Positions 784-33,527 of a stretch of 35,234 nucleotides of DNA are shown in pieces. A program made the translations under genes and the position numbers. Each line of letters opens with the position of its first letter. Position 1 is the stretch's first letter. Under the pieces are notes generated by a model that did no database searches, was not told where the DNA came from, and worked only from the letters and a program-made list of their open reading frames with translations. Origin of the DNA: Nostoc sp. TH1S01 (lineage in GTDB: Bacteria > Cyanobacteriota > Cyanobacteriia > Cyanobacteriales > Nostocaceae); contig JAGKSW010000008.1 of NCBI GenBank assembly GCA_018993265.1, forward strand, positions 1 through 35,234, given 5' to 3'.

Positions 784-3700
784 ATGACTCAGCATTCTAC
801 CAAGAAACCCAATAGTAATATTGCTAATACTGAAGTTGAACCACTCCTAGCCAAAGCCAGTAATTATCAAAATAATATTAATCTCAATAGGGAAAACAGT
901 AGCAATTCGTTGCGCCGTTCCCAGTCGCTTTTGCCTTGGCAACAAGGACAGCAACAATGGAGCTTAAAATCGAAAGTTACTGGTTGGGCGATCGCTCTCA
1001 GTATGCTACCAGTGTTAGGTATAGGAGCAGCCAGCTACTTTGGCAGCCAGTCAATCACTCAGCAAATTAACCAAGCCAAGTCAGCCAGCACCGCAGATTT
1101 AGAACCAGCACAAACTAGCCTCCAGCAATATCAAACAGCTTTATTATGGGGAACTGGGATGATTGCTGTCTTATCAGGTGCGATCGCATCTCTCATTTCC
1201 CATCGTCTGACGCGACCTGTTTTGTCGGCGGCGGAGATTTCTACAGTTTTAGTTAATAGATTAAGTCGTCGAGAAGAAGTAGAAACTCAAACTGATATTA
1301 CAGAACAAGATGAATTAGTTGCGCTCAAAGCCAACATTAACCAGCTACAACTTCAGTTACCCGCCTTACTCTCTAAACAAGAAACGGAAACAGAACGTTC
1401 TCAATTGTTAATTAACCTGACTCGCCGAATGCAGGAAGCACTTTCGCAAGAAGACCTGCTCAGGACTACAGTAGAAGAAGTTCGTAAAGCTTTGAGAATC
1501 GACCGTGTAGTTATTTTTCACTTTGACTCTAATTGGAATGGCTCATTTTTAGAAGAATCAGCCGCACCTGGTTTACCCAAAATATTATGGGCGACTGTGA
1601 CTGATCCCTGTTTTCAAGAAAGATACATTGAACAGTACCGCCAAGGACGTGTCCGCGCCATCAATAACATTTACCAAGCTGATCTGACAGATTGTCACAT
1701 CGGTTTGCTAGAAAGATTTGGCATTAAAGCCAACTTAGTTGCACCCATCCTCAAAAATAATCAGCTATTCGGCTTGCTCATTGGTCATCAATGTTCTGCA
1801 CCCCGATTTTGGCAACAGGCTGAAATTGATTTATTTGCTCAAGTCGCTACACAACTAGGATTTGCCCTTGACCATACCAGACTTGTAGAACAAATCGACA
1901 AAAGAGCCGACCAAGCGCATTTGGTCATCGATATTACCCGCAAAATTCGGCAATCGCTCAACGAAGAAGATGTGCTGAAAACCACCGTTGAAGAAATTCG
2001 CAAAGCCCTCAGTACAGACCGCGTGTTAGTGTATGGTTTTGATGCTGACTGGTATGGCACAGTCATCGCGGAAGCCGTAGTTCCCGGTTTCCCGAAAGCA
2101 TTGCGTGCCAAAATTAAAGACCCTTGCTTTGCTGAAGGTTATGTAGAGCAATACAGAACAGGTCGAGTTCAAGCAACCAATGATATTTACAAGGCAGGTC
2201 TGAGTGCTTGTCACATCAGCCAACTGGAACCTTTTGCTGTCAAAGCCAACTTAGTTGCACCCATTCTCAAAGATGACAAGTTATTCGGCTTATTGATTGC
2301 CCATCATTGTGCTGCACCGCGCGAATGGCAACAAACCGAGATTGATTTAGTAACTCAGTTAGCTATGCAGGTGGGATTTGCCCTTGACCATGCCAGATTA
2401 CTCCAGCGCATTGATGCTGAAGGAGTACGTACTCAGCTACAGGTAGACATTACCCGCAAGATTCGGCGATCGCTCAACGAAGAAGATGTGCTGAAAACCA
2501 CCGTTGAAGAAATCCGCAAAGCCATCAGCGCCGACCGGGTAATAGTGTATGGTTTTGATGCTGAATGGTACGGTACAGTCATCGCTGAAGCGGTAGTTCC
2601 CGGTTTTCCAAAAGCGTTGCGTGCCAAAATTAAAGATCCTTGCTTTGTGGAAGGCTATGTAGACCAATACAGAGCCGGTCGAGTCAAAGCCACAAATGAT
2701 ATTTACAAGGCAGGTCTAAGTGCTTGTCACATCAGCCAATTAGAGCCTTTCGCTGTCAAAGCCAACTTAGTTGCACCCATTCTCAAAGATGACCAATTAT
2801 TTGGCTTATTAATTGCCCATCAATGTGCTGCACCGCGGGATTGGCAACAGCCAGAAATTGATTTGTTTGCACAGTTGGCAATGCAGGTAGGATTTGCCCT
2901 TGACCATGCCAGGTTGTTAGACCAAGTAGAGCAAGCCTATCAATCTTTAGAATCAGCTTTGACACAGCAAAATCTGCGACAAGGAGTATTGCAAGTTCAA
3001 GTATCTCAATTATTGAAAGATCATCAAACGGTTGTCGAAACAATTTCCACTCAGGCAATTAGCCAAATGGATGCTCTCACAGAGGCTCATCATCAAATTC
3101 AAGCATTAGCTGGCGGAATTCAAGAAATTTTCCGGTGTGTGCAAGAGCTAGAAAACCAAGCCCAGCAAATTTCCGCGCAAGTAGAAACCCGTCAGGAAGA
3201 GATGAAGGGAATTTTAGATGAGATTGTGGCGGTAGGGACTACGGCTGTAGAAGCGACTACCAGACTGAATTATTTTGACTCCCCCTCTCAAACACTGTTA
3301 GCTAAAGTTAGTTTGATTAGTCTGGTAGCATCACAAATCAAGCGCCAGGCGATGAAGGTAGTCTTTGATGCTGTACGGACTGAGGAAGCAGATTTGACGA
3401 GTACTGCGGAGCAATTACTTGCTTTGGTGCAGCAGTTAGATGATGAAATGACAGAAATTAAATCTTTAGTGAATGAGGTTGATTTGGCTAATACTGAAGT
3501 CACGGCATTAATGCGCTTAGGAGAACAACAAGCGATCGCCGCTACTCAAGAAGTTACAGTAACTCAGCAAGCACTCAACCACATTACAGCCATGAGCCAG
3601 CAAATCAATGCGCTGCTCAAAGAACTGATGCAAGCTGCTAACAACCAAGTCGAAATTTCTACTACAGTTAGTCAATCTCTGTTGGAAGTTGCTGGGGTTT

Positions 3701-3792
3701 CACAACAGACAACTGCACAAACGGTTAACTTAGCTAAAGATTTAACTAAGTTAACTGCGATCGCCCAAGAATGGGCAGAAAACAATATATGA
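784..3792 (+). CDS. membrane-anchored sensor with three tandem DXCF-type cyanobacteriochrome GAF domains and an MCP-like tail
   Basis: The 1002-residue protein is a candidate light-sensing receptor of the PixJ/chemoreceptor type. Two hydrophobic segments (about residues 65-85 and 120-140) bracket a short periplasmic loop. A HAMP-like stretch follows, then three GAF units. Each GAF carries a DPCF motif (Cys276, Cys448, Cys620) and, exactly 28 residues later, a Cys-His pair (Cys304, Cys476, Cys648). This two-cysteine pattern is known for DXCF cyanobacteriochromes, in which the second Cys binds the bilin. The units repeat every 172 residues, and units 2 and 3 are nearly identical. The tail (about 720-1002) is helical coiled coil and aligns without gaps to the chemoreceptor hairpin ending in EIKSLV (892-897). 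The usual glutamate-rich GEQGRGF tip is absent, being replaced around 867-874. No che genes lie nearby. The photoreceptor role is inferred from motifs. Confidence 0.85.
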   Translation: MTQHSTKKPNSNIANTEVEPLLAKASNYQNNINLNRENSSNSLRRSQSLLPWQQGQQQWSLKSKVTGWAIALSMLPVLGIGAASYFGSQSITQQINQAKSASTADLEPAQTSLQQYQTALLWGTGMIAVLSGAIASLISHRLTRPVLSAAEISTVLVNRLSRREEVETQTDITEQDELVALKANINQLQLQLPALLSKQETETERSQLLINLTRRMQEALSQEDLLRTTVEEVRKALRIDRVVIFHFDSNWNGSFLEESAAPGLPKILWATVTDPCFQERYIEQYRQGRVRAINNIYQADLTDCHIGLLERFGIKANLVAPILKNNQLFGLLIGHQCSAPRFWQQAEIDLFAQVATQLGFALDHTRLVEQIDKRADQAHLVIDITRKIRQSLNEEDVLKTTVEEIRKALSTDRVLVYGFDADWYGTVIAEAVVPGFPKALRAKIKDPCFAEGYVEQYRTGRVQATNDIYKAGLSACHISQLEPFAVKANLVAPILKDDKLFGLLIAHHCAAPREWQQTEIDLVTQLAMQVGFALDHARLLQRIDAEGVRTQLQVDITRKIRRSLNEEDVLKTTVEEIRKAISADRVIVYGFDAEWYGTVIAEAVVPGFPKALRAKIKDPCFVEGYVDQYRAGRVKATNDIYKAGLSACHISQLEPFAVKANLVAPILKDDQLFGLLIAHQCAAPRDWQQPEIDLFAQLAMQVGFALDHARLLDQVEQAYQSLESALTQQNLRQGVLQVQVSQLLKDHQTVVETISTQAISQMDALTEAHHQIQALAGGIQEIFRCVQELENQAQQISAQVETRQEEMKGILDEIVAVGTTAVEATTRLNYFDSPSQTLLAKVSLISLVASQIKRQAMKVVFDAVRTEEADLTSTAEQLLALVQQLDDEMTEIKSLVNEVDLANTEVTALMRLGEQQAIAATQEVTVTQQALNHITAMSQQINALLKELMQAANNQVEISTTVSQSLLEVAGVSQQTTAQTVNLAKDLTKLTAIAQEWAENNI

Positions 3793-8624: not shown

Positions 8625-9608
8625 ATGCCTACTGTTAACACCCAAACTGAAAACCTGAACACCAAATTCACGGCTGATATGGTGCGAACCTATCTGCGGG
8701 AAATTGGTCGTGTGCCACTGCTAACCCGTGAGCAAGAAATTGTCTATGGGAAGCAGGTGCAACAAATGATGACGTTAGTTGAAGCGAAAGAAGCTTTGGC
8801 GAAAAAATTGCACCGCGAACCAAGCTTACCAGAATGGGCAAACCATGTTAAACAATCAGAAACCGATGTGAAACAAACGGTAGCTCAAGGTAAACGCGCC
8901 AAGCAAAAAATGATTGAGGCGAACTTACGTTTAGTAGTGGCGATCGCCAAGAAATACCAAAAGCGTAACATGGAATTTCTCGATTTAATTCAAGAAGGCA
9001 CACTTGGGTTAGAACGAGGTGTAGAGAAGTTTGACCCCACACGCGGTTATAAATTCTCAACCTACGCTTACTGGTGGATTCGCCAAGCAATTACCCGTGC
9101 GATCGCTCAACAAGGCCGCACCATTCGCTTACCGATTCATATTACCGAAAAACTGAACAAAATCAAAAAAGTGCAGCGGGAATTAGCCCAAACATTGGGT
9201 CGTTCTCCTACACCCGCCGAAATCGCCAAAGAACTGGAATTAGAACCAGCCCAAATTCGGGAATATCTGAATATGGCACGTCAACCAGTTTCTTTAGATG
9301 TTCGTGTTGGTGATAACCAAGACACCGAACTGCAAGAAATGTTGGAAGATGAAGGCCCATCACCAGAGTATTACACCACCCAAGAGTTCTTGCGCCAAGA
9401 CCTCAACACCTTGCTAGCCGAACTCACACCCCAACAGCGTGAAGTGTTAGCCCTGCGCTTTGGCTTAGAGGATGGTAACGAATTGTCCTTGGCGAAAGTT
9501 GGTGAAAGATTAAATCTCAGCCGCGAACGTGTTCGTCAACTCGAACATCAAGCCTTAGCTCATCTGCGCCGTCGTCGCGCCAACGTTAAAGAATACGTTG
9601 CTAGCTAA
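8625..9608 (+). CDS. sigB2: group 2 RNA polymerase sigma factor (SigB/SigB2-like)
   Basis: The 327-residue protein is a sigma-70 family factor. Region 1.2 begins at [16 protein letters not shown] (about 19-34). Region 2 contains [22 protein letters not shown] and the -10-recognising [17 protein letters not shown] (about 147-163). Region 3 follows, and region 4.2 has the helix-turn-helix around [14 protein letters not shown] near the C-terminus. It lacks the long N-terminal extension of the primary sigma factor, which marks it as group 2. Such factors are known to redirect transcription under stress, carbon or nitrogen shifts. The subtype name rests on the [14 protein letters not shown] end and on recalled Anabaena gene order, so it is tentative. 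Overlap with the second sigma gene's protein (26423) is strong throughout. Confidence 0.9.
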
Positions 9609-22647: not shown

Positions 22648-24990
22648 TCAATCCCTATTCCTTTCTTTTTGTCCAAGTAATAGATAAGTTGCTATTTTCT
22701 TTTGATGGGGAATTTCTATTTCATGCTGTGGTGTTAGGACAAATTCATCATGTATTTGTTCGTAAGCCGTGGCGCTGACTTGGATCGTATCAGCTAAACT
22801 TTGAGTTTGGAGGACTCTAGCAATATTGATAGTGTCTATTAAACCAACTGCTGCTGCTGTAACAACTCCAGTATGGATACCAATACAAATTTTCAGGTTT
22901 TGTTGATTTTCTATATTATATGTGGCGATCGCAGCTTGCATATCCAGCGCCATTTGGGCTATAGCTTGTGTATGATCTGGGCGTTTTATGGGTAATCCTC
23001 CAATCACTATATATGCTTCATTGATGGTTTTGACTTTTTCTAAACCGTAGCGAGTGCAGAGGCGATCAAAATTTGTAAAAATTGGACAAAGTAAATTAAC
23101 TAATTGCATCGCACTTCCCGATATAGAAATTTCATTTAAACCGACAATATCAGCACATAAAACCGTCACGTTGATTAAATCTACTTCTGTAGTGTCTATT
23201 GGTGATTGTAAAGTTTTAGATGTTAATGCTGGTATTCTTGCTTGCCAGAATTGTTCTGTTTGGGCTTGCTGTTGCTGCAATGCTGTTTCTAAAGCGACTC
23301 GCTGTGTAATATTGCGAAAAATTCCGCGAGTTGCCACTGGCAGACCATTAGCAAATTTACAGTTTATATTACCTTCCACAAAAATTGTTTCACCATTTTT
23401 GGCAATAAAAGCTGCCTTCACTTGCTCTAGTTGTTCTCCGGACATTAACCGATAAAACATTTGCCGACAATGTTCTTTAAAATCGGGATGTATAATGTCA
23501 AAGATATTCATTTGCTCAACTTCGGTGGCGCTGTATCCTAATGTTTTACACCACATGCGATTAACATATAAAAACCGCCCATAAGGATTAACAGACTGAA
23601 TTAGCTCATTAGCATTTTCACAAATATCTCGATATCGAGATTCACTTTCTAACAAATTTTCTTCTGCTTGTTTGCGTTTCATAAATTGCGCGATTTGACT
23701 GCCTACAGACACCATCATTTGTAATAAATCTGCGTCTTTAGGTTGCACATCACGGCTAAAAAAAGTCATTACTCCTAAAATTTTATTGTCATCTAGGATC
23801 GGGAACCCAAATGCTGAACGTAATCCAGCCGCGACAGCAGTTGGCGATCGCAGTGAATCTCCATAGTCTAAAATATTTTTAATCCATAAAGCCGAACGTC
23901 TGCTCCAAATTTGTCCTGGTAATCCGACATTTGGCAAATATGTAGTCTGCCATGTCACGGCTTTAAATTCCCGCGCAGATACAAGTCGGCTTGACCAAAT
24001 TTCCACACATCTTAATACTGCATTGTTACTTTCTGCCGGCACATCAGTACTAATATATTCACTGATTGTCCATAATTCTCCTACATCCCACTCTAAACTT
24101 TGGCAAATTGCCTGTAAAATTTCTGGCATTGCCTGTTTAATACTTTGCGATTCAGAGAGAATTCGGGTAATTTCATACTGGGCAACATTACGTTGTTCTC
24201 GACGCTGGCGACTGGTAATATCTCGACCAATATAGATAATATCTTCTAGAATTTCATTCTTCTTTTGCATGACTGTACAAGAAAAAGCTACTAAGACTTT
24301 TTCTCGTGTTTTTTTGCGACAGACAACTTCAAATTGCTGCAAATCTCGGTTGATTTTACTATAGTGATTAATAATTCTGAGCAATAAAAAATTATCTTCA
24401 AATATCAAAGATATGGGTTGGTTAATTAACTCTGCTTCTGAGAAATCAAATAATTTTTGTGCTGCCCGATTAACTTTCTTAATTTTTCCTGTATTTGTAG
24501 TTATTAATAAGGCATCTGCCATTGAACTGATAACTGTTTCCATATAATTTTGATATGTTACCAGTGTCATCGACAACAGATTGGTAGTATTGGTAATTTT
24601 TAATAACTCTTGTTTTATTTTGATTTTATCTGTAACATCTTCAAAAAAAATCATCAATTTTCTATCAGATAATTTTTCTTGAGTTTCACCAATAATATAT
24701 ATATTAATATAGATATCGGGTTGATTTTCCCGATTCCGCCTAATTGCCTCTAATTCAAATATTTCTTGTTGCCCTTGAATGATAGATTGTAATATATCTT
24801 CTTGCCCTACAAATTCGGGAAAACCGATGCGAATATCTGTGCCGAACTTCACTGCTGTTGGTTGCAGTGCAAAGCGCTGTACTTGCTCAGATTTATCGAT
24901 AATACAAAAATGAACATCTAGTTCTAGGTATTCAAATTTACGTAAAATCGAATATTTGTTAAAAATCTGCTCGACTACCTCGTATTTCAT
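22648..24990 (-). CDS. multi-domain PAS/GAF sensor with a degenerate class III nucleotide cyclase domain
   Basis: The 780-residue cytoplasmic protein reads from ATG 24990; a TTG eight codons upstream is less likely. The order is a PAS-like domain (about 15-130), a PAS domain (about 150-265), a GAF domain (about 280-435), a third PAS domain (about 450-570) and a class III cyclase domain (about 605-760). In the cyclase part, TVLCADIVG keeps the first metal Asp. The second motif is KTINEAY instead of KTIGDAY, so the second metal Asp is a Glu. The segment that normally reads DLWGDTVNTASR is shortened to DTINIAR, shifting the Asn-Arg spacing. Catalysis is therefore doubtful. The gene has no close partner; the product may bind nucleotide or act as a scaffold. 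Confidence 0.85.
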   Translation of the reverse strand: MKYEVVEQIFNKYSILRKFEYLELDVHFCIIDKSEQVQRFALQPTAVKFGTDIRIGFPEFVGQEDILQSIIQGQQEIFELEAIRRNRENQPDIYINIYIIGETQEKLSDRKLMIFFEDVTDKIKIKQELLKITNTTNLLSMTLVTYQNYMETVISSMADALLITTNTGKIKKVNRAAQKLFDFSEAELINQPISLIFEDNFLLLRIINHYSKINRDLQQFEVVCRKKTREKVLVAFSCTVMQKKNEILEDIIYIGRDITSRQRREQRNVAQYEITRILSESQSIKQAMPEILQAICQSLEWDVGELWTISEYISTDVPAESNNAVLRCVEIWSSRLVSAREFKAVTWQTTYLPNVGLPGQIWSRRSALWIKNILDYGDSLRSPTAVAAGLRSAFGFPILDDNKILGVMTFFSRDVQPKDADLLQMMVSVGSQIAQFMKRKQAEENLLESESRYRDICENANELIQSVNPYGRFLYVNRMWCKTLGYSATEVEQMNIFDIIHPDFKEHCRQMFYRLMSGEQLEQVKAAFIAKNGETIFVEGNINCKFANGLPVATRGIFRNITQRVALETALQQQQAQTEQFWQARIPALTSKTLQSPIDTTEVDLINVTVLCADIVGLNEISISGSAMQLVNLLCPIFTNFDRLCTRYGLEKVKTINEAYIVIGGLPIKRPDHTQAIAQMALDMQAAIATYNIENQQNLKICIGIHTGVVTAAAVGLIDTINIARVLQTQSLADTIQVSATAYEQIHDEFVLTPQHEIEIPHQKKIATYLLLGQKERNRD

Positions 24991-25310
24991 TATATTCTTG
25001 AGTAAGTGATGCAATTATTTTGACAACAACTTTCAATTGCAAGCGGCGAAACCAATAGAGAAAAACTTAAAAAACCACTTTTTGTTGGATAAATATTTTA
25101 TCCTTGATGGACTCAAGACTAAAGTCTCTAGTCTTAGTATTTAATGTCAGTACCAGTTATAATTCTATAGTTTATTTTGGCAAAAATTCACTCTCAAATA
25201 CAGTTAATTAACAGCCAGTACCAACAATAAGTGGCTTAAAAGATCCAGCGTTTTGGTAAAGAATAAAATTTTGCAACAAACAGCAAAATTTTCAGAAAAT
25301 ATTATATAAA
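24991..25310. other. gene-free spacer upstream of the PAS/GAF/cyclase-like gene
   Basis: The only structure seen is an inverted repeat, AAGACTA (25115-25121) and TAGTCTT (25129-25135), with a 7-base loop about 125 bases before the sensor gene start. The rest is AT-rich without an open frame of interest. Confidence 0.35.
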
Positions 25311-26422: not shown

Positions 26423-27373
26423 ATGTCCAGCCTAAGTCCTGACATGGTACGCGTTTATTTACGAGAGATTGGCCAGTTCCCTTTACTCACCTCAGACCAA
26501 GAAATCACTTATGGCAGGCAAGTACAGCAAATGATGGCCATTGAGGAGCAAAAACAACAGCTGAGTGAACAATTGGATCGGGAACCAACATTATCAGAAT
26601 TAGCGAATTTTGTAAACAAAAGCGAATCTGAAATCACTCAAATCCTCCAGCTTGGTCAGCGAGCCAAGCAAAAAATGGTGACAGCAAACCTCCGACTGGT
26701 GGTTTCCATTGCCAAAAAATATCAGCGTCGCAATCTAGAATTATTAGATTTGATTCAAGAAGGTGCAATTGGTTTACAACGAGGCATAGAAAAATTCGAC
26801 CCCAATCGCGGTTATAAGTTGTCAACCTATGCCTACTGGTGGATTAGCCAAGCTATTACCAGAGCGATCGCTGAAAAATCCCGCACTGTTAGGCTACCAA
26901 TTCACGTTAACGAAAAACTCAATCAAATCAAAAAAGTCCAACGAGAATTATTTCAAACTCTTGGTCGTCGTCCTTCGGTGGCAGAAATTGGTCAAAAATT
27001 GGACATCGAACCCAGCCAAATTCGAGAATATCTCAGTGCTGCTAGTTCGACAATTTCTTTAGATTTAAAAGTTGGCGATAACCAAGACACAGAACTCAGT
27101 GAACTTTTAAGTGATGATGGTGTCTCCCCCAATGACCAAATTACCCAAGAAATGCTGCGTCAAGACTTGGATAACTGGTTATCATCACTGAAACCTGTGC
27201 AACGTGAAGTATTAATTTTGCGTTTTGGACTGCTAGATAATCAAGAACGGAGTTTGGCACAGATTGGCGAAAAGCTCAATGTCAGCCGCGAACGTGTTCG
27301 TCAAATTCAGCAGCAAGCCATGAATGTTCTGCGTCGTCAACAACCAGAAATGGGACAATATCTATCTTCTTGA
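26423..27373 (+). CDS. sigD: group 2 RNA polymerase sigma factor (SigD-like)
   Basis: The 316-residue protein has the same layout as the sigma factor at 8625. Region 1.2 starts SPDMVRVYLREIGQFPLL, region 2 contains NLRLVVSIAKKY and [17 protein letters not shown] (about 134-150), and region 4.2 contains LNVSRERVRQIQQQAMNVLRR. It has Ser instead of Arg in the WWIRQ position (WWISQ) of region 2.4, the part that reads the -10 box, which may alter promoter choice. No long N-terminus is present, so it is group 2. The SigD name is tentative, based on recalled Anabaena gene order and the RQIQQQA end. The ribosome site is weak. The gene is bracketed by hairpin arrays. Confidence 0.9.
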   Translation: MSSLSPDMVRVYLREIGQFPLLTSDQEITYGRQVQQMMAIEEQKQQLSEQLDREPTLSELANFVNKSESEITQILQLGQRAKQKMVTANLRLVVSIAKKYQRRNLELLDLIQEGAIGLQRGIEKFDPNRGYKLSTYAYWWISQAITRAIAEKSRTVRLPIHVNEKLNQIKKVQRELFQTLGRRPSVAEIGQKLDIEPSQIREYLSAASSTISLDLKVGDNQDTELSELLSDDGVSPNDQITQEMLRQDLDNWLSSLKPVQREVLILRFGLLDNQERSLAQIGEKLNVSRERVRQIQQQAMNVLRRQQPEMGQYLSS

Positions 27374-28818: not shown

Positions 28819-30216
28819 TCAAATCGCTTTAGAATAACCAAGATTTGCTCTTTCCCGCAGATAAACATCAAATACAGCCGCAATGTTGCGAATGAGTAAT
28901 CTGCCGCTTGGTGTCACTTCAATTTGATTAGGAGAAAGTTTAATCAAACCATCAGCTTCTAATAACCGTAATTGTAATTGCTCTGTTTGGAAATATTCAG
29001 CAAAATCACTATCAAAGTGTAGATGATATTTTTCTTCTATTTTGTCTGGGGAAAGCTGGACTTGACACATTAATTCCATAATGATTGTCCTACGCACAAC
29101 ATCATCTTGATTGAGTTTCACTCCTTTTTCGATTGGTAATTCATCATTATTAATCGCTTGATAATAATTTTTGAGTCGTTTATGATTCTGCACATACACA
29201 TCATGCAGCATACTAATTGAACTCATTCCAAATGCTAACAAATCAGATTCTGGTTTGGTGGTATAGCCTTGGAAGTTGCGATGTAGTTGCCCTTGTTGTT
29301 GGGCGATCGCTAATTCATCATTTGGTTTCGCAAAATGATCCATACCGATAAAAACATAGCCATTGTTGCTTAATTCTTCAATTGACATCTGCAAAATTCG
29401 CAATTTTTCTTCAGCTAATGGCAAAGCCTCTTGCGGAATTAAACGTTGAATTGGTTTTAACCAAGGTACATAAGCAAAGTTAAACACTGCAATCCGGTCT
29501 GGATTGAGTTGAATTGTCTTGTTAACTGTGCTTTTAAAAGTCTCTAAAGTTTGATAAGGCAAGCCATAAATTAAATCAACATTCACACTCGTAAAACCAG
29601 CATCCCGCACCCAATCCATCACCTGAAACAGCATTTCTTCCGGCTGAATTCGGTTAACAGCTTGTTGTACTTGCAAATTAAAATCTTGAATGCCAAAACT
29701 AATGCGATTAAAACCTAAATCTTTTAAAGTAAACAAGTAATCTCTATCTAAAAATCGTGGGTTGACTTCAATAGAAATTTCTGCATCATCATCAAAATCA
29801 AAACAATGATTGAGTGCGTACCATAAAGCCTCAACTTGACGTAGTGATAAATAATTTGGAGTACCACCACCCCAATGTAATTGTTGAACAGTCCGTTCGT
29901 GATGAATTAAAGACGCTACTCGTTGAATATCCCGAATCAAATAATTTAAATAAGGTTCAGCAAGTATTTTATTGGGAGTAATAACAGTATTACAACCGCA
30001 GAAATAACAAGCACTTTCACAAAAGGGAATATGACAATATAGTGATAGGGGTGTTTTTTTGTAATTGCCAACTGCGATCGCTGCTTTAAAATCAGCTTGT
30101 TCAAAATCCTCTGTTAACTCTGTAGCGGGAGGATAACTAGTGTAGCGCGGTAAAGGCTGATCATATTTTCTCAGCAAGTCAGCATCAAATCTCACATTTT
30201 GCGACAAAACGTTCAT
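28819..30216 (-). CDS. hemN: oxygen-independent coproporphyrinogen III oxidase
   Basis: The 465-residue radical-SAM enzyme converts coproporphyrinogen III to protoporphyrinogen IX without O2. PRYTSYPPA (about 23-31) and SLYCHIPFCESACYFCGC (about 58-75) carry the CxxxCxxC cluster (Cys66, Cys70, Cys73) and the extra Cys75 found in true HemN. HWGGGTPNYL, EVNPRFL, FNRISFGIQDF and VDLIYGLPYQT follow as in the family, with the C-terminal HemN domain to the end, so it is likely a genuine HemN rather than HemW. No ribosome site is obvious before ATG 30216. It lies 89 bases after the heme oxygenase gene with a palindromic repeat between, and 98 bases before desC, in a low-oxygen context. Confidence 0.95.
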   Translation of the reverse strand: MNVLSQNVRFDADLLRKYDQPLPRYTSYPPATELTEDFEQADFKAAIAVGNYKKTPLSLYCHIPFCESACYFCGCNTVITPNKILAEPYLNYLIRDIQRVASLIHHERTVQQLHWGGGTPNYLSLRQVEALWYALNHCFDFDDDAEISIEVNPRFLDRDYLFTLKDLGFNRISFGIQDFNLQVQQAVNRIQPEEMLFQVMDWVRDAGFTSVNVDLIYGLPYQTLETFKSTVNKTIQLNPDRIAVFNFAYVPWLKPIQRLIPQEALPLAEEKLRILQMSIEELSNNGYVFIGMDHFAKPNDELAIAQQQGQLHRNFQGYTTKPESDLLAFGMSSISMLHDVYVQNHKRLKNYYQAINNDELPIEKGVKLNQDDVVRRTIIMELMCQVQLSPDKIEEKYHLHFDSDFAEYFQTEQLQLRLLEADGLIKLSPNQIEVTPSGRLLIRNIAAVFDVYLRERANLGYSKAI

Positions 30217-30255
30217 AAAAATTCGGAATTACAAATCTTGTATTTACAGGTTTTT

Positions 30256-30288
30256 AGATCCTCGACTTCTTGAAGAAGTCGGGGATCT
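30256..30288. repeat. palindromic repeat between heme oxygenase and hemN
   Basis: AGATCCTCGACTTCTT (30256-30271) pairs with AAGAAGTCGGGGATCT (30273-30288) with one wobble and almost no loop. No T-run follows on the minus strand. It may stabilise or attenuate the message between the two genes. Confidence 0.7.
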
Positions 30289-30305
30289 GTTCATTTTGCA
30301 GCACT

Positions 30306-31055
30306 TCAAATACTGTAATTAAGTACCTTATTTTGTTCAGCCCTATTTTCTGTGCTACCTGGTTTATCTTGGCGAGTCATCAAATCAAAAACATGATCAC
30401 CAACAACAGCTTTCACATCTGCTTCTAGTTCATGAACGACATCCCGGTTGAGGGCAAAAGCATAGTTAGCTTCGTCTACAATTTTCTGAACTGTAGCTTC
30501 ATCTATCGCCAAAGAATTCAATGCTTGACGGTATTGTTCTTTAAATGCTCGTTTGGCTTCTGGGGTAGGAATTTGTTCAAATTCGTGCATTGCAGTTCCT
30601 TGCTCTGATGGTAAATCCATTGCCGAACGGGCAATATTTCGCAGTGCTTGTCCACCAGATAAATCTCCCATATAGCGGGTGTAAGCATGAGCAATTAATA
30701 ACTCAGGTTGTGTGTTAGCAATTTCCCGCAGCCGATTTACATAAATTTTTCCAGATGGCGAAGGTTTAATTTCTTCTTGCCAATTTTCACCGTAATAATA
30801 TGCTAAATCTTTCTCTAAATTGGCTTGACGATTCAATTCCGGAAAATAAATCAACCCCACAATTGGATGATTTTGATATCGTTGTAATTCCGCTTCTAAA
30901 ACAGAATAGACAAAGTAAAGATCCGCCAACAATTTCCTAAAAAAGCTCTTTTCGACAATCCCTTTCAGGAAACATTTCATAAACGCAGTATTTTCCGCCA
31001 AGGTATGGGAATGTTTTGTTCCTTCCCGTAAACGCACATCTAAATGGCTACTCAT
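30306..31055 (-). CDS. ho2: biliverdin-producing heme oxygenase (HO2-like)
   Basis: The 249-residue enzyme opens heme to biliverdin, CO and iron, using ferredoxin and O2; biliverdin feeds phycobilin and phytochrome chromophores. The N-terminus MSSHLDVRLREGTKHSHTLAE carries the proximal heme-ligand His at residue 17. The distal-helix motif GDLSGGQALR is at about 133-142. The start at ATG 31055 is supported by GAGG eight bases upstream; an ATG six codons earlier is less likely. The HO2 assignment rests on its position beside hemN and hemF rather than on a diagnostic residue. It is 106 bases after hemF, separated by CTGCTCC-type repeats. Confidence 0.93.
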   Translation of the reverse strand: MSSHLDVRLREGTKHSHTLAENTAFMKCFLKGIVEKSFFRKLLADLYFVYSVLEAELQRYQNHPIVGLIYFPELNRQANLEKDLAYYYGENWQEEIKPSPSGKIYVNRLREIANTQPELLIAHAYTRYMGDLSGGQALRNIARSAMDLPSEQGTAMHEFEQIPTPEAKRAFKEQYRQALNSLAIDEATVQKIVDEANYAFALNRDVVHELEADVKAVVGDHVFDLMTRQDKPGSTENRAEQNKVLNYSI

Positions 31056-31161
31056 AGCGAATACCTCATTCATTATTAAAAAGTTTTGGTTATCTTTTTG
31101 GGATTGGGGTAAATAAAAATCTTCCTCTGCTCCCCTGCTCCCTTGCTCCCTCTGCTTTCTT

Positions 31162-32205
31162 CTACACCCAATCTCTAGGCTGAAGAAAAACTTTCGTCAG
31201 TTCTGCTTCTGGGGTTCCTGCTTCTGGTTCATAGCAATATTCCCAGCGTGCTAAAGGTGGTAATGACATCAGGATAGATTCTGTTCTGCCCTTGGTTTGT
31301 AACCCAAACACTGTGCCTCGGTCGTAAACTAAATTAAACTCGACGTAACGACCCCGACGGTACAGTTGGAAATTACGCTGGCGATCGCCATACTCTGTTT
31401 CTTGTCGCCGTTCTACAATGGGCAAGTAAGCAGGTAAAAAAGCTTTACCGCAAGACTGCACAAACGCAAAGATATCTTCCCAATTGCGATCGACATTTCC
31501 CACTTTTTGGCTGTAAATAGCGGCTGGAGTATCTGTTTGAGAACCGACGTAAAGCTTACCACTAGCATCTTGATAATCAAAGAAAATACCGCCAATACCT
31601 CGCTGTTCTTGACGATGGCGCAAATAAAAGTATTCATCGCACCAACGCTTAAAAGTTGGGTAATACTCTGGATGGTGGGAATCACAAGCATTTTTCAACG
31701 TTTGATGAAAGTGAACAGCATCTTCAGCAAAAGCATAATATGGCGTTAAATCTGCGCCACCACCAAACCACCAAATCGGCCCAGCTTCAAAGTAGCGATA
31801 GTTAAGATGTACTGTTGGCACATAGGGATTGCGGGGGTGCAACACCATTGAAGTTCCTGTGGCGAAAAACTCATGCCCTGCTGCTTCTGGACGTTGCGCC
31901 AAAATCGAAGCTGGTAAGCTTTTTCCCCAGACTGCGGAAAAGTTCACACCGCCTTGTTCAAACACCCGCCCTTCTCGAATCACGCGGGTACGTCCTTCTC
32001 CACCTTCTTCTCGCTCCCAGTAATCTTGTTGAAAGCGTGCTTCTCCGTCAATTTGCTCTAACCCTGTGCAAATCTCATCCTGGATGTTTTGCATAAATTG
32101 CAGCACCCGCGACCGTGAATCCTTGGGTATGGTGTTATTGGGTGATGCGAGGAATGTTGTGTGATTTGGATATTCTTGCAGAGACTTATCGAAATGACGG
32201 CGCAT
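31162..32205 (-). CDS. hemF: oxygen-dependent coproporphyrinogen III oxidase
   Basis: The 347-residue soluble enzyme performs the same two decarboxylations as HemN but with O2. Family signatures are complete: [25 protein letters not shown] split by its conserved His residues, the [13 protein letters not shown] box, and [29 protein letters not shown] forms the C-terminal active-site strand. The start at ATG 32205 has GAGG seven bases upstream; a GTG 14 codons further out is rejected. It is the first gene of the minus-strand group hemF-ho-hemN-desC. Its promoter region is shared with acsF, with a palindrome 46 bases before the start. Confidence 0.96.
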
Positions 32206-32250
32206 GGTAAAACCTCTAAAATTTCGGGTCGGTGAAATTATCACCACTTA

Positions 32251-32266
32251 ATAACTCTATAGTTAT
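32251..32266. promoter_or_regulatory. proposed operator A, ATAACT-CTAT-AGTTAT (hemF side)
   Basis: A perfect 6-base-arm palindrome 46 bases upstream of the hemF start. The same arms occur in site B on the acsF side, and both are followed by GAA. Size and symmetry suit a MarR-type dimer; ChlR, a MarR-family activator of the low-oxygen tetrapyrrole genes in Synechocystis, is a candidate, but the match is inference. Confidence 0.55.
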
Positions 32267-32425
32267 GAATTGACTTTGCAACAGAGAAGTTTCAAAACTT
32301 AATAAACTATCTCAACCCCAGCCCTCTAAGGCTTTGATATAGTCTGCTCTGGTATCTATAGTCTGGGTGATTTCCGACTTTACTCAAGGATTGTAAAGAG
32401 GTCTAGCCAAAGAATCCCACTTATC

Positions 32426-32441
32426 ATAACTTGATAGTTAT
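32426..32441. promoter_or_regulatory. proposed operator B, ATAACT-TGAT-AGTTAT (acsF side)
   Basis: The same palindrome as site A, 31 bases before the acsF start. Here the arms extend to eight perfect bases (TCATAACT and AGTTATGA, 32424-32443). The central four bases differ from site A while the arms are kept, as expected of a protein-binding site. Confidence 0.58.
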
Positions 32442-32471
32442 GAAATTATTTACTTGATTACCGCATTACTT

Positions 32472-33527
32472 ATGGTTAATACTCTGCCCAAGCCAGGAAT
32501 TAAAACCCCCAGCAAAGAAACTGTACTCACTCCCCGCTTTTATACAACAGATTTTGAAAAAGCAGCCAACTTAGATTTGTCTTGTCAAGATACAGAATTG
32601 CAGGCGATGTTGGCAGAGATGCGAGCCGACTATAACCGCCACCACTTTGTTAGAGATGAAGCATTTGAACAGTCCTGGGAACACATTGAAGGTGAAGCGA
32701 GACAGGCGTTTATTGATTATTTAGAACGCTCTTGCATTTCCGAATTTTCTGGTTTTTTACTGTTTAAGGAGTTGTCCCGCAAGCTGAAAAATCGCAGTCC
32801 ATTACTAGCAGAGATGTTTCAACTCATGGCGCGTGATGAAGCCCGCCACGCCGGATTTCTCAACAAAGCAATGGGAGATTTTAAACTCTCCCTAGATTTA
32901 GCAACGGTGACGAAAACCCGCACCTATACGTTTTTCCCAATAGAATGGGTACTTTACACCGTCTACCTATCAGAAAAAATCGGCTATTGGCGTTACATCA
33001 TTATTTACAGACATTTAGAAAAGCACCCGGAAAACCAGTTTTACCCCATCTTCCGCTACTTTGAGAGTTGGTGTCAGGACGAAAACCGCCACGGAGATAT
33101 ATTTAAGGCGCTGTTACGTTCTCAACCGCAACTTTGGAAGACCTGGAAAGCTAAACTGTGGAGTCGCTTTTTCTTGCTGTCGGTATTTGCTACCCATACA
33201 ATGACAGTTCATGAACGGTCTGGTTTTTACAAAACTTTAGGACTAGATGCTACAGAATTTGACCGCCAAGTGGTTTACAACACTAACGAAACAGCCGGAC
33301 GGGCTTTTCCTGTGATGTTAGATACCGAACATCCCCAATTTTTCCCCCGCTTACAACGCTGCGCGGCTTACAACTTACAAATTGCAGAAATTGAACGTAG
33401 TTCTCAGCCCAAATTTATCAAGCTGATGCGTAAACTACCTTTAATCACAGCTATTATTTGGAATTTACTATTGCTTTATCTCATCAAGCCCATTGATGCT
33501 GAAGCTTTGCGTGAAACCGTGCGTTAG
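32472..33527 (+). CDS. acsF: aerobic Mg-protoporphyrin IX monomethyl ester cyclase
   Basis: The 351-residue di-iron oxygenase forms the fifth ring of chlorophyll, making divinyl protochlorophyllide. Glu/His ligands are visible in the segments SGFLLFKELS, MARDEARHAGFLNKAMGD (about 121-138) and CQDENRHGDIFKALL (about 201-215), each with the ExxH-type pattern of the family. A hydrophobic segment lies near the C-terminus (about 321-337, LPLITAIIWNLLLLYLI). The first ATG (32472) is used; a TTG six codons earlier is possible. Proximity to heme oxygenase and hemN suggests it is the low-oxygen paralogue (acsF2/chlAII type), but no residue proves that. The promoter region contains operator B. BciB follows on the same strand. 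Confidence 0.94.
   Translation: MVNTLPKPGIKTPSKETVLTPRFYTTDFEKAANLDLSCQDTELQAMLAEMRADYNRHHFVRDEAFEQSWEHIEGEARQAFIDYLERSCISEFSGFLLFKELSRKLKNRSPLLAEMFQLMARDEARHAGFLNKAMGDFKLSLDLATVTKTRTYTFFPIEWVLYTVYLSEKIGYWRYIIIYRHLEKHPENQFYPIFRYFESWCQDENRHGDIFKALLRSQPQLWKTWKAKLWSRFFLLSVFATHTMTVHERSGFYKTLGLDATEFDRQVVYNTNETAGRAFPVMLDTEHPQFFPRLQRCAAYNLQIAEIERSSQPKFIKLMRKLPLITAIIWNLLLLYLIKPIDAEALRETVR

Follow-up and report, generated by a model that had tools for sequence, protein, structure and literature searches.

On a reading that we hold with somewhat more than even confidence, a gene of Nostoc sp. TH1S01 encodes a membrane-anchored receptor that carries three DXCF GAF domains, derives from a chemoreceptor, is uncoupled from CheA kinase and, in lineages that still have one, signals by way of a CheW-fold adaptor. 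The gene lies in the 35,234-nucleotide stretch of DNA analyzed here (the window), which is the start of a contig in a 7.65 Mb genome. It occupies positions 784-3792 of the forward strand as a single ORF of 1002 aa with an ATG start. The features assigned to it are as follows, with the basis of each in parentheses.

784..3792, + strand: photoreceptor gene, TM-TM-(HAMP-like)-GAF-GAF-GAF-chemoreceptor-derived hairpin with rewritten tip (ORF, Pfam, Cys positions)
973..1047, + strand: membrane helix 1, aa ~64-88 (Kyte-Doolittle peak)
1132..1212, + strand: membrane helix 2, aa ~117-143 (Kyte-Doolittle peak)
1204..1368, + strand: HAMP-like linker, aa ~141-195 (inferred from sequence by eye)
1399..1899, + strand: GAF1, aa ~206-372, DXCF Cys276 and canonical Cys304 (Pfam; ends by eye)
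1900..2415, + strand: GAF2, aa ~373-544, Cys448 and Cys476 (Pfam; ends by eye)
2416..2931, + strand: GAF3, aa ~545-716, Cys620 and Cys648 (Pfam; ends by eye)
2935..3333, + strand: descending hairpin helix, aa 718-850 (AlphaFold2 model, dN/dS)
3334..3498, + strand: rewritten tip region, aa 851-905 (tail alignment, AlphaFold2 model)
3499..3789, + strand: ascending hairpin helix, aa 906-1002 (AlphaFold2 model)

The Pfam search of the 1002-aa receptor returned no HAMP match for the linker.

The receptor carries three DXCF GAF units

Pfam recognized three GAF stretches in the receptor (198.7 bits), each of which holds a DXCF cysteine (Cys 276, 448, and 620) and a canonical Cys-His cysteine (Cys 304, 476, and 648). 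The members of each pair lie 28 residues apart and the units repeat every 172 residues, just as the initial annotation had described its three two-cysteine units. GAF2 and GAF3 are 84% identical, and GAF1 is 58-59% identical to either. The top PDB sequence matches of the receptor were entries named methyl-accepting chemotaxis proteins, the best of them being 3vv4 (E 7e-47), the GAF of the cyanobacteriochrome TePixJ. By sequence, the receptor GAFs are of the DXCF cyanobacteriochrome type and probably sense blue and green light, and the photosensor role that had been proposed for the protein is supported by the sequence, with GAFs predicted to be of the bilin type. They resemble TePixJ-type DXCF cyanobacteriochromes in the 28-residue spacing of the DXCF and canonical Cys and in the strong match to solved GAFs, but differ in that three stand in tandem on a tail that is apparently not coupled to a kinase.

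The chemoreceptor hairpin is retained but its tip is rewritten

The tail had also been described as chemoreceptor-like, and a search with MCPsignal (PF00015) agreed with this, although every match fell below the curated cut-off of 34.6 bits: 18.4 bits for the whole receptor, 24.8 for the tail alone, and 22.1 in the genome search. By score, the receptor does not qualify as a methyl-accepting chemotaxis protein, and the strong full-length match with an intact tip that would have contradicted the initial annotation was not seen for the tail. AlphaFold2, run with 17 aligned tails, retained an antiparallel helical hairpin (pLDDT 84.7, pTM 0.48) that turns at the two Glu of EEADL (aa 867-871), tail residues 150-151, and a Foldseek search with this model returned chemoreceptors as its best matches, in keeping with a long hairpin of that kind.

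The conserved residues of a chemoreceptor tip include ones that dock CheA and CheW. For the comparison of tips, tails were divided into two sets by their score against an HMM of 12 intact tails (<200 or >200 bits), and residues were counted in 25 family rows and 22 intact rows, with the tip letters checked in the fetched loci; three tails without a tip (L068, L069, and L071) and a duplicate (L062, the same gene as L130) were excluded. The T of the intact tip (22/22 intact rows) is replaced by I, M, L, or V in 24/25 family rows and the N (21/22) by K in 22/25, while changes at three further positions run through all 25: L (22/22) to Q, H, K, E, or D, G (22/22) to E, K, D, Q, Y, or R, and S (21/22) to L. 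Part of the usual tip is retained in the family (E in 20/25 rows, A in 21/25, R in 21/25, and F in 15/25), so that the original docking surface may persist in part.

The window receptor and 24 other family members can be aligned with intact tips position by position across the tip. In the window receptor, the tip reads QIK instead of QTN at aa 851, has no GRG, and is altered at three residues (T, L, and G) shared by all 22 intact rows, while R and A are retained; much of the consensus of QTN, GRGF, and their neighbors is gone, and the family motif QQL stands at aa 883-885. Two residues that most relatives retain are deleted in the turn, contrary to the gapless alignment with an MCP hairpin that had been reported. 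Judged by the alignment, this tip is a homologous one that has been rewritten, with a two-residue deletion, and the model suggests that the receptor fold has been kept while the sequence of its docking end has changed. The initial annotation had taken the tip for an unrelated acidic stretch, which is right as to its acidity (EEADL, LDDE) but not as to its origin, and had called the signaling tip lost, which is true of much of the usual consensus but not of the hairpin and turn, which are kept in the model and carry a different sequence common to the family. EIKSLV, which had been placed at the end of the tail, lies at aa 891-896 with 106 further residues to the C-terminus.

Distribution, phylogeny, and constraint of the receptor family

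We searched for the tail across 80 genomes, including that of the window, and in the fetched surroundings of the matches. Members were seen in 20 Nostocaceae genomes besides that of the window, and also in four further families. DXCF motifs were tallied in 21 rows (the window receptor and 20 others), of which 20 are complete and one, L067, is cut by a contig end; among the complete members, 17 have three DXCF/Cys-His pairs and three have two, and all 57 pairs have a spacing of 28. Literal loss of the tip occurs in relatives and not in the window receptor: ~106 residues are missing around the tip in G005 and G006 (L068 and L069), and in G011 (L071) the tail ends before the tip, while all three receptors still hold three DXCF/Cys pairs. 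Symmetrical shortening of the hairpin was considered for G005 and G006 and rejected, as the missing residues (aa ~789-894) are not centered on the turn at 867. The single TAG found inside the family match of each of G042 and G013 is a normal gene end by the ORF frames. A peptide-based DNA-pattern scan of genome contigs found one locus only, in Nostoc sp. CHAB 5844. A rewritten-tip receptor with four DXCF motifs was also observed at a contig end (L119, G071 C409). Among the matches listed in searches of the open literature, none describes the rewritten-tip family.

In an unrooted tree of 47 tails, the rewritten-tip and intact sets are parted by one branch (100/100), and the same split is obtained at 100/100 without the tip columns. 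Long branches lead to L120, L122, L192, and L193, and also to L070 when the tip is included.

Pairwise dN/dS (NG86) was calculated for eight pairs of relatives, six of them for the tip (two pairs are without one). It was 0.03-0.10 in the GAFs, 0.15-0.34 in the tip, 0.10-0.45 in the tail helices, and 0.24-0.40 in the N-terminus. In an intact receptor from overlapping genomes (C62 type, no DXCF; five same-genus pairs), the corresponding values were 0.00-0.02 in the tip, 0.02-0.09 in the tail helices, and 0.08-0.17 before the tail, so that the order of constraint is reversed between the two, single values being rough because the segments are short and some dS are near 1. By these comparisons, the family tip is less constrained than that of a normal receptor, yet not free. 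The GAFs are strongly constrained, which speaks for continued use of light sensing itself.

A kinase-less CheA homologue adjoins the receptor in relatives

Chemoreceptors and CheA are textbook partners. In three relatives (G013, G014, and G017), the next gene downstream of the receptor, on the same strand, encodes a CheA-like protein (554, 426, and 329 aa, respectively) in which CheW and receiver domains are present but the kinase is absent. More kinase-less copies adjoin rewritten-tip receptors in G071 (C175 and C97, the latter with the two genes divergent), G062, G221, and G266 (two loci, with one of the two receptors probably cut by a contig end). In total, a kinase-less CheA homologue adjoins a rewritten-tip receptor in nine fetched loci (tails 70-172 bits, local HMMs), its architecture being Hpt-CheW-REC, CheW-REC or, once, one without receiver, whereas 14 loci hold a kinase-bearing CheA and a normal-tip MCP (346-438 bits) in the same fetched stretch, not always adjoining. 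As the loci were chosen through matches and not at random, this constitutes an association rather than a survey; as they share ancestry, a Fisher test is not taken as proof, and each trait may have arisen once, so that the pattern does not amount to 23 independent events. A tenth kinase-less copy (L117) runs into a contig end and shows no adjoining receptor; the closest MCP of that contig, ~6 kb away, has a normal tip. In L065, a second, normal-tip MCP (322 bits) lies divergently upstream of the rewritten-tip receptor.

A kinase-core HMM, built from two sequences only, found no match at E 1e-3 in the ten kinase-less proteins, and Pfam at E 0.01 found no kinase or dimerization domain in the eight that were scanned, while it recognized CheW in 8/8 and a receiver in 7/8. 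By these searches, the dimerization and kinase domains that characterize CheA are lacking from the relatives' neighbor proteins. A receiver with the acidic pair, Asp, and Lys follows the CheW domain in nine of the ten, L193 ending before it. An Hpt region could be aligned in six of the ten, with the Hpt His kept in L116, L120, and L122 and Gln in its place in L187, L062, and L193; the Hpt of L062 is under the Pfam cut-off (22.1 vs 24.6) and that of L193 was detected only by the local HMM. L065, L067, and L192 show no Hpt, and L117 is cut. When compared with 18 kinase-bearing proteins, nine kinase-less ones form one branch (99/98); L193, which matched the CheW-receiver model only weakly, did not form part of this tree. 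An AlphaFold2 model of a 643-aa copy (pLDDT 70.2) consists of helical bundles, a beta domain, and a receiver, the last matching receiver structures at roughly 1-1.5 A, with a low-confidence stretch (residues 245-323) without secondary structure between the helical and CheW parts.

No kinase-less copy was found in the genome of the window (G000), where the CheW-part matches sit in frames of 1742, 1027, and 1202 aa. The initial annotation's proposal of signaling through another partner is favored by the nine relatives' loci, though this genome yielded no such gene. Among the matches listed to the G013 neighbor, most of those outside its own genome lie within frames of ~900 aa or more, and in 18 of the 21 receptor-bearing Nostocaceae genomes the best of the listed matches is a CheA-size frame (887-1897 aa), although a strongly diverged copy could escape such a comparison. 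By this count, a kinase-less partner cannot be essential to whatever maintains the receptor. As a separate observation, CheA is apparently split in L188, L189, and L191, with Hpt encoded by one gene and kinase-CheW-REC by another, the Hpt match of L191 being weak.

The receptor gene stands alone in its surroundings

Pfam found no other chemotaxis-like gene among the 22 window ORFs scanned, the window beginning at a contig end. Elsewhere in the genome, four other MCPs exceed the MCPsignal cut-off (contigs C196, C62, C77, and C241), and ten CheW places are distributed over these contigs and C174, none being on the window's contig. The genes downstream of the receptor (fasciclin, GST-like, HerA-like, and sigma factor) were considered as partners and set aside, their synteny in eight same-genus loci being uninformative on signaling. 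In five of these eight loci (L052, L053, L054, L055, and L056), an apparent Ser/Thr kinase gene, recognized by eye, lies on the same strand 197-319 bases upstream of the receptor; in the window, a tblastn search of the 783 bases between the receptor and the contig end detected nothing of this gene, and in G005 and G006 the next gene upstream is a different one.

Contig C174 (L207 6118-6831) encodes a solo CheW-domain protein whose N-terminus looks Cys-rich by eye; it lies near an aminotransferase and a SufBD gene, and no chemotaxis domain was found in its five scanned neighbors. A similar protein occurs in 22 of the 80 genomes at E 1e-15. Examined as a replacement partner in 48 Nostocaceae genomes, the solo CheW is present in 14 and the receptor in 21, with both in 10 and the receptor alone in 11.

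The window also contains a tetrapyrrole cluster (28819-33527: HemN, heme oxygenase, aerobic coproporphyrinogen oxidase, and AcsF cyclase), which shares its contig with the bilin-type receptor; heme oxygenase catalyzes a step towards bilins. Two sigma-70 family factors (8625-9608 and 26423-27373) and a 788-aa protein with GAF, PAS, and adenylate/guanylate cyclase domains (22648-25014, - strand) were likewise observed.

Interpretation of the receptor and its partner

PixJ1/TaxD1 and PtxD join a GAF array to a C-terminal chemoreceptor module, PixJ1 with two transmembrane domains, according to one account (PMC5812497), and PixJ and PtxD are also described in another (PMC13383048). The window receptor shares this plan; however, PixJ1/TaxD1 and PtxD are described there as lying in clusters with CheA, CheW, and CheY homologues, whereas the window receptor is encoded alone and has a rewritten tip and a sub-cut-off MCPsignal match. 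For these reasons (tip, score, and lone position), an ordinary phototaxis receptor of the PixJ/PtxD type, still driving CheA and tolerating a divergent tip, is not our main reading, and we consider it very improbable. It would account for the plan shared with PixJ1 and PtxD (PMC5812497), for the retention of the tip E, A, and R in most of the family, and for the four contigs of this genome that hold both a normal MCP and CheW; it accords poorly with a receptor that scores under the MCPsignal cut-off and has no adjoining chemotaxis gene, with the change of several intact-invariant tip positions throughout the family, and with the lack of a kinase in the relatives' neighboring CheA homologues.

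We favor, instead, a receptor uncoupled from CheA kinase, the paired relatives suggesting a receptor-adaptor module without a kinase. Light would alter the GAFs and the signal would run down the coiled coil to the new tip, which would dock the CheW domain of the kinase-less adaptor; docking may then either reposition the adaptor's receiver or change how a different kinase phosphorylates it, the adaptor acting, by analogy, like a private CheV-like adaptor. In the genome of the window, the dedicated adaptor gene would have been lost and the receptor kept for its light-sensing domains, with the tail turned to another function or a lesser one, such as docking a new partner or forming a membrane scaffold. 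CheV itself, a CheW-REC adaptor, has been proposed to work for particular chemoreceptors (PMC4742279), and the relatives' partner is like it in combining CheW with a receiver and in going with receptors of a distinct signaling domain; it differs in grouping with CheA-REC hybrids, in often having an Hpt remnant, and in being encoded beside the receptor. With CheA the partner shares Hpt, CheW, and receiver in the same order, but has no recognizable kinase domain, whereas, in a CheA survey, every CheA homologue of the set had one, with one CheA3 carrying a degenerate, non-functional kinase domain (PMC10782961). Proteins such as the relatives' kinase-less ones lay outside that set.

A broader proposal, which we advance tentatively as possible but somewhat less probable, is that the family represents an old cyanobacterial module, a chemotaxis core that shed its kinase, in which a multi-GAF receptor, its tip purpose-built, would form with a kinase-less Hpt-CheW-REC adaptor derived from CheA a receiver scaffold that is gated by light and supplied by other kinases; in the window's lineage, the receptor would have persisted beyond its adaptor and taken up a new partner.

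Two other explanations, each of which we think unlikely, draw on the same evidence. The receptor may be slowly losing its function, the tip having drifted once the CheA partner had lost its kinase, with the receptor gene persisting by chance or for a residual role. The graded states of the partner (from a retained Hpt His, through its loss and the absence of Hpt, to no partner found), the deleted or truncated tips of three relatives, and a tail dN/dS above that of the intact receptor all fit such a course, but the GAFs are constrained, with their Cys pairs uniformly spaced in the complete members, tip dN/dS lies well under 1 in all six pairs, the tip holds invariant positions of its own, and the flagged stops are ordinary gene ends. 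Alternatively, the protein may be a light-responsive scaffold, a role that the initial annotation had also proposed, or an antenna; its hairpin would only hold the GAFs in membrane dimers or oligomers, or would mix with normal receptors and dilute their arrays in a light-dependent manner. Tip residues also serve in mixing with other receptors. A hairpin fold kept in the model, GAFs that are the most constrained part, and a tip that is dispensable in G005, G006, and G011 would all be expected of a scaffold; yet the tip signature is common to several families, including partner-bearing ones, and a pure spacer needs none.

The natural tip variants and deletions of this family could be used to test which residues let a chemoreceptor drive CheA. 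A clade in which both the receptor tip and the kinase core are altered, while the photosensors are conserved, would show a kinase array turned into a kinase-free signaling or scaffold device.
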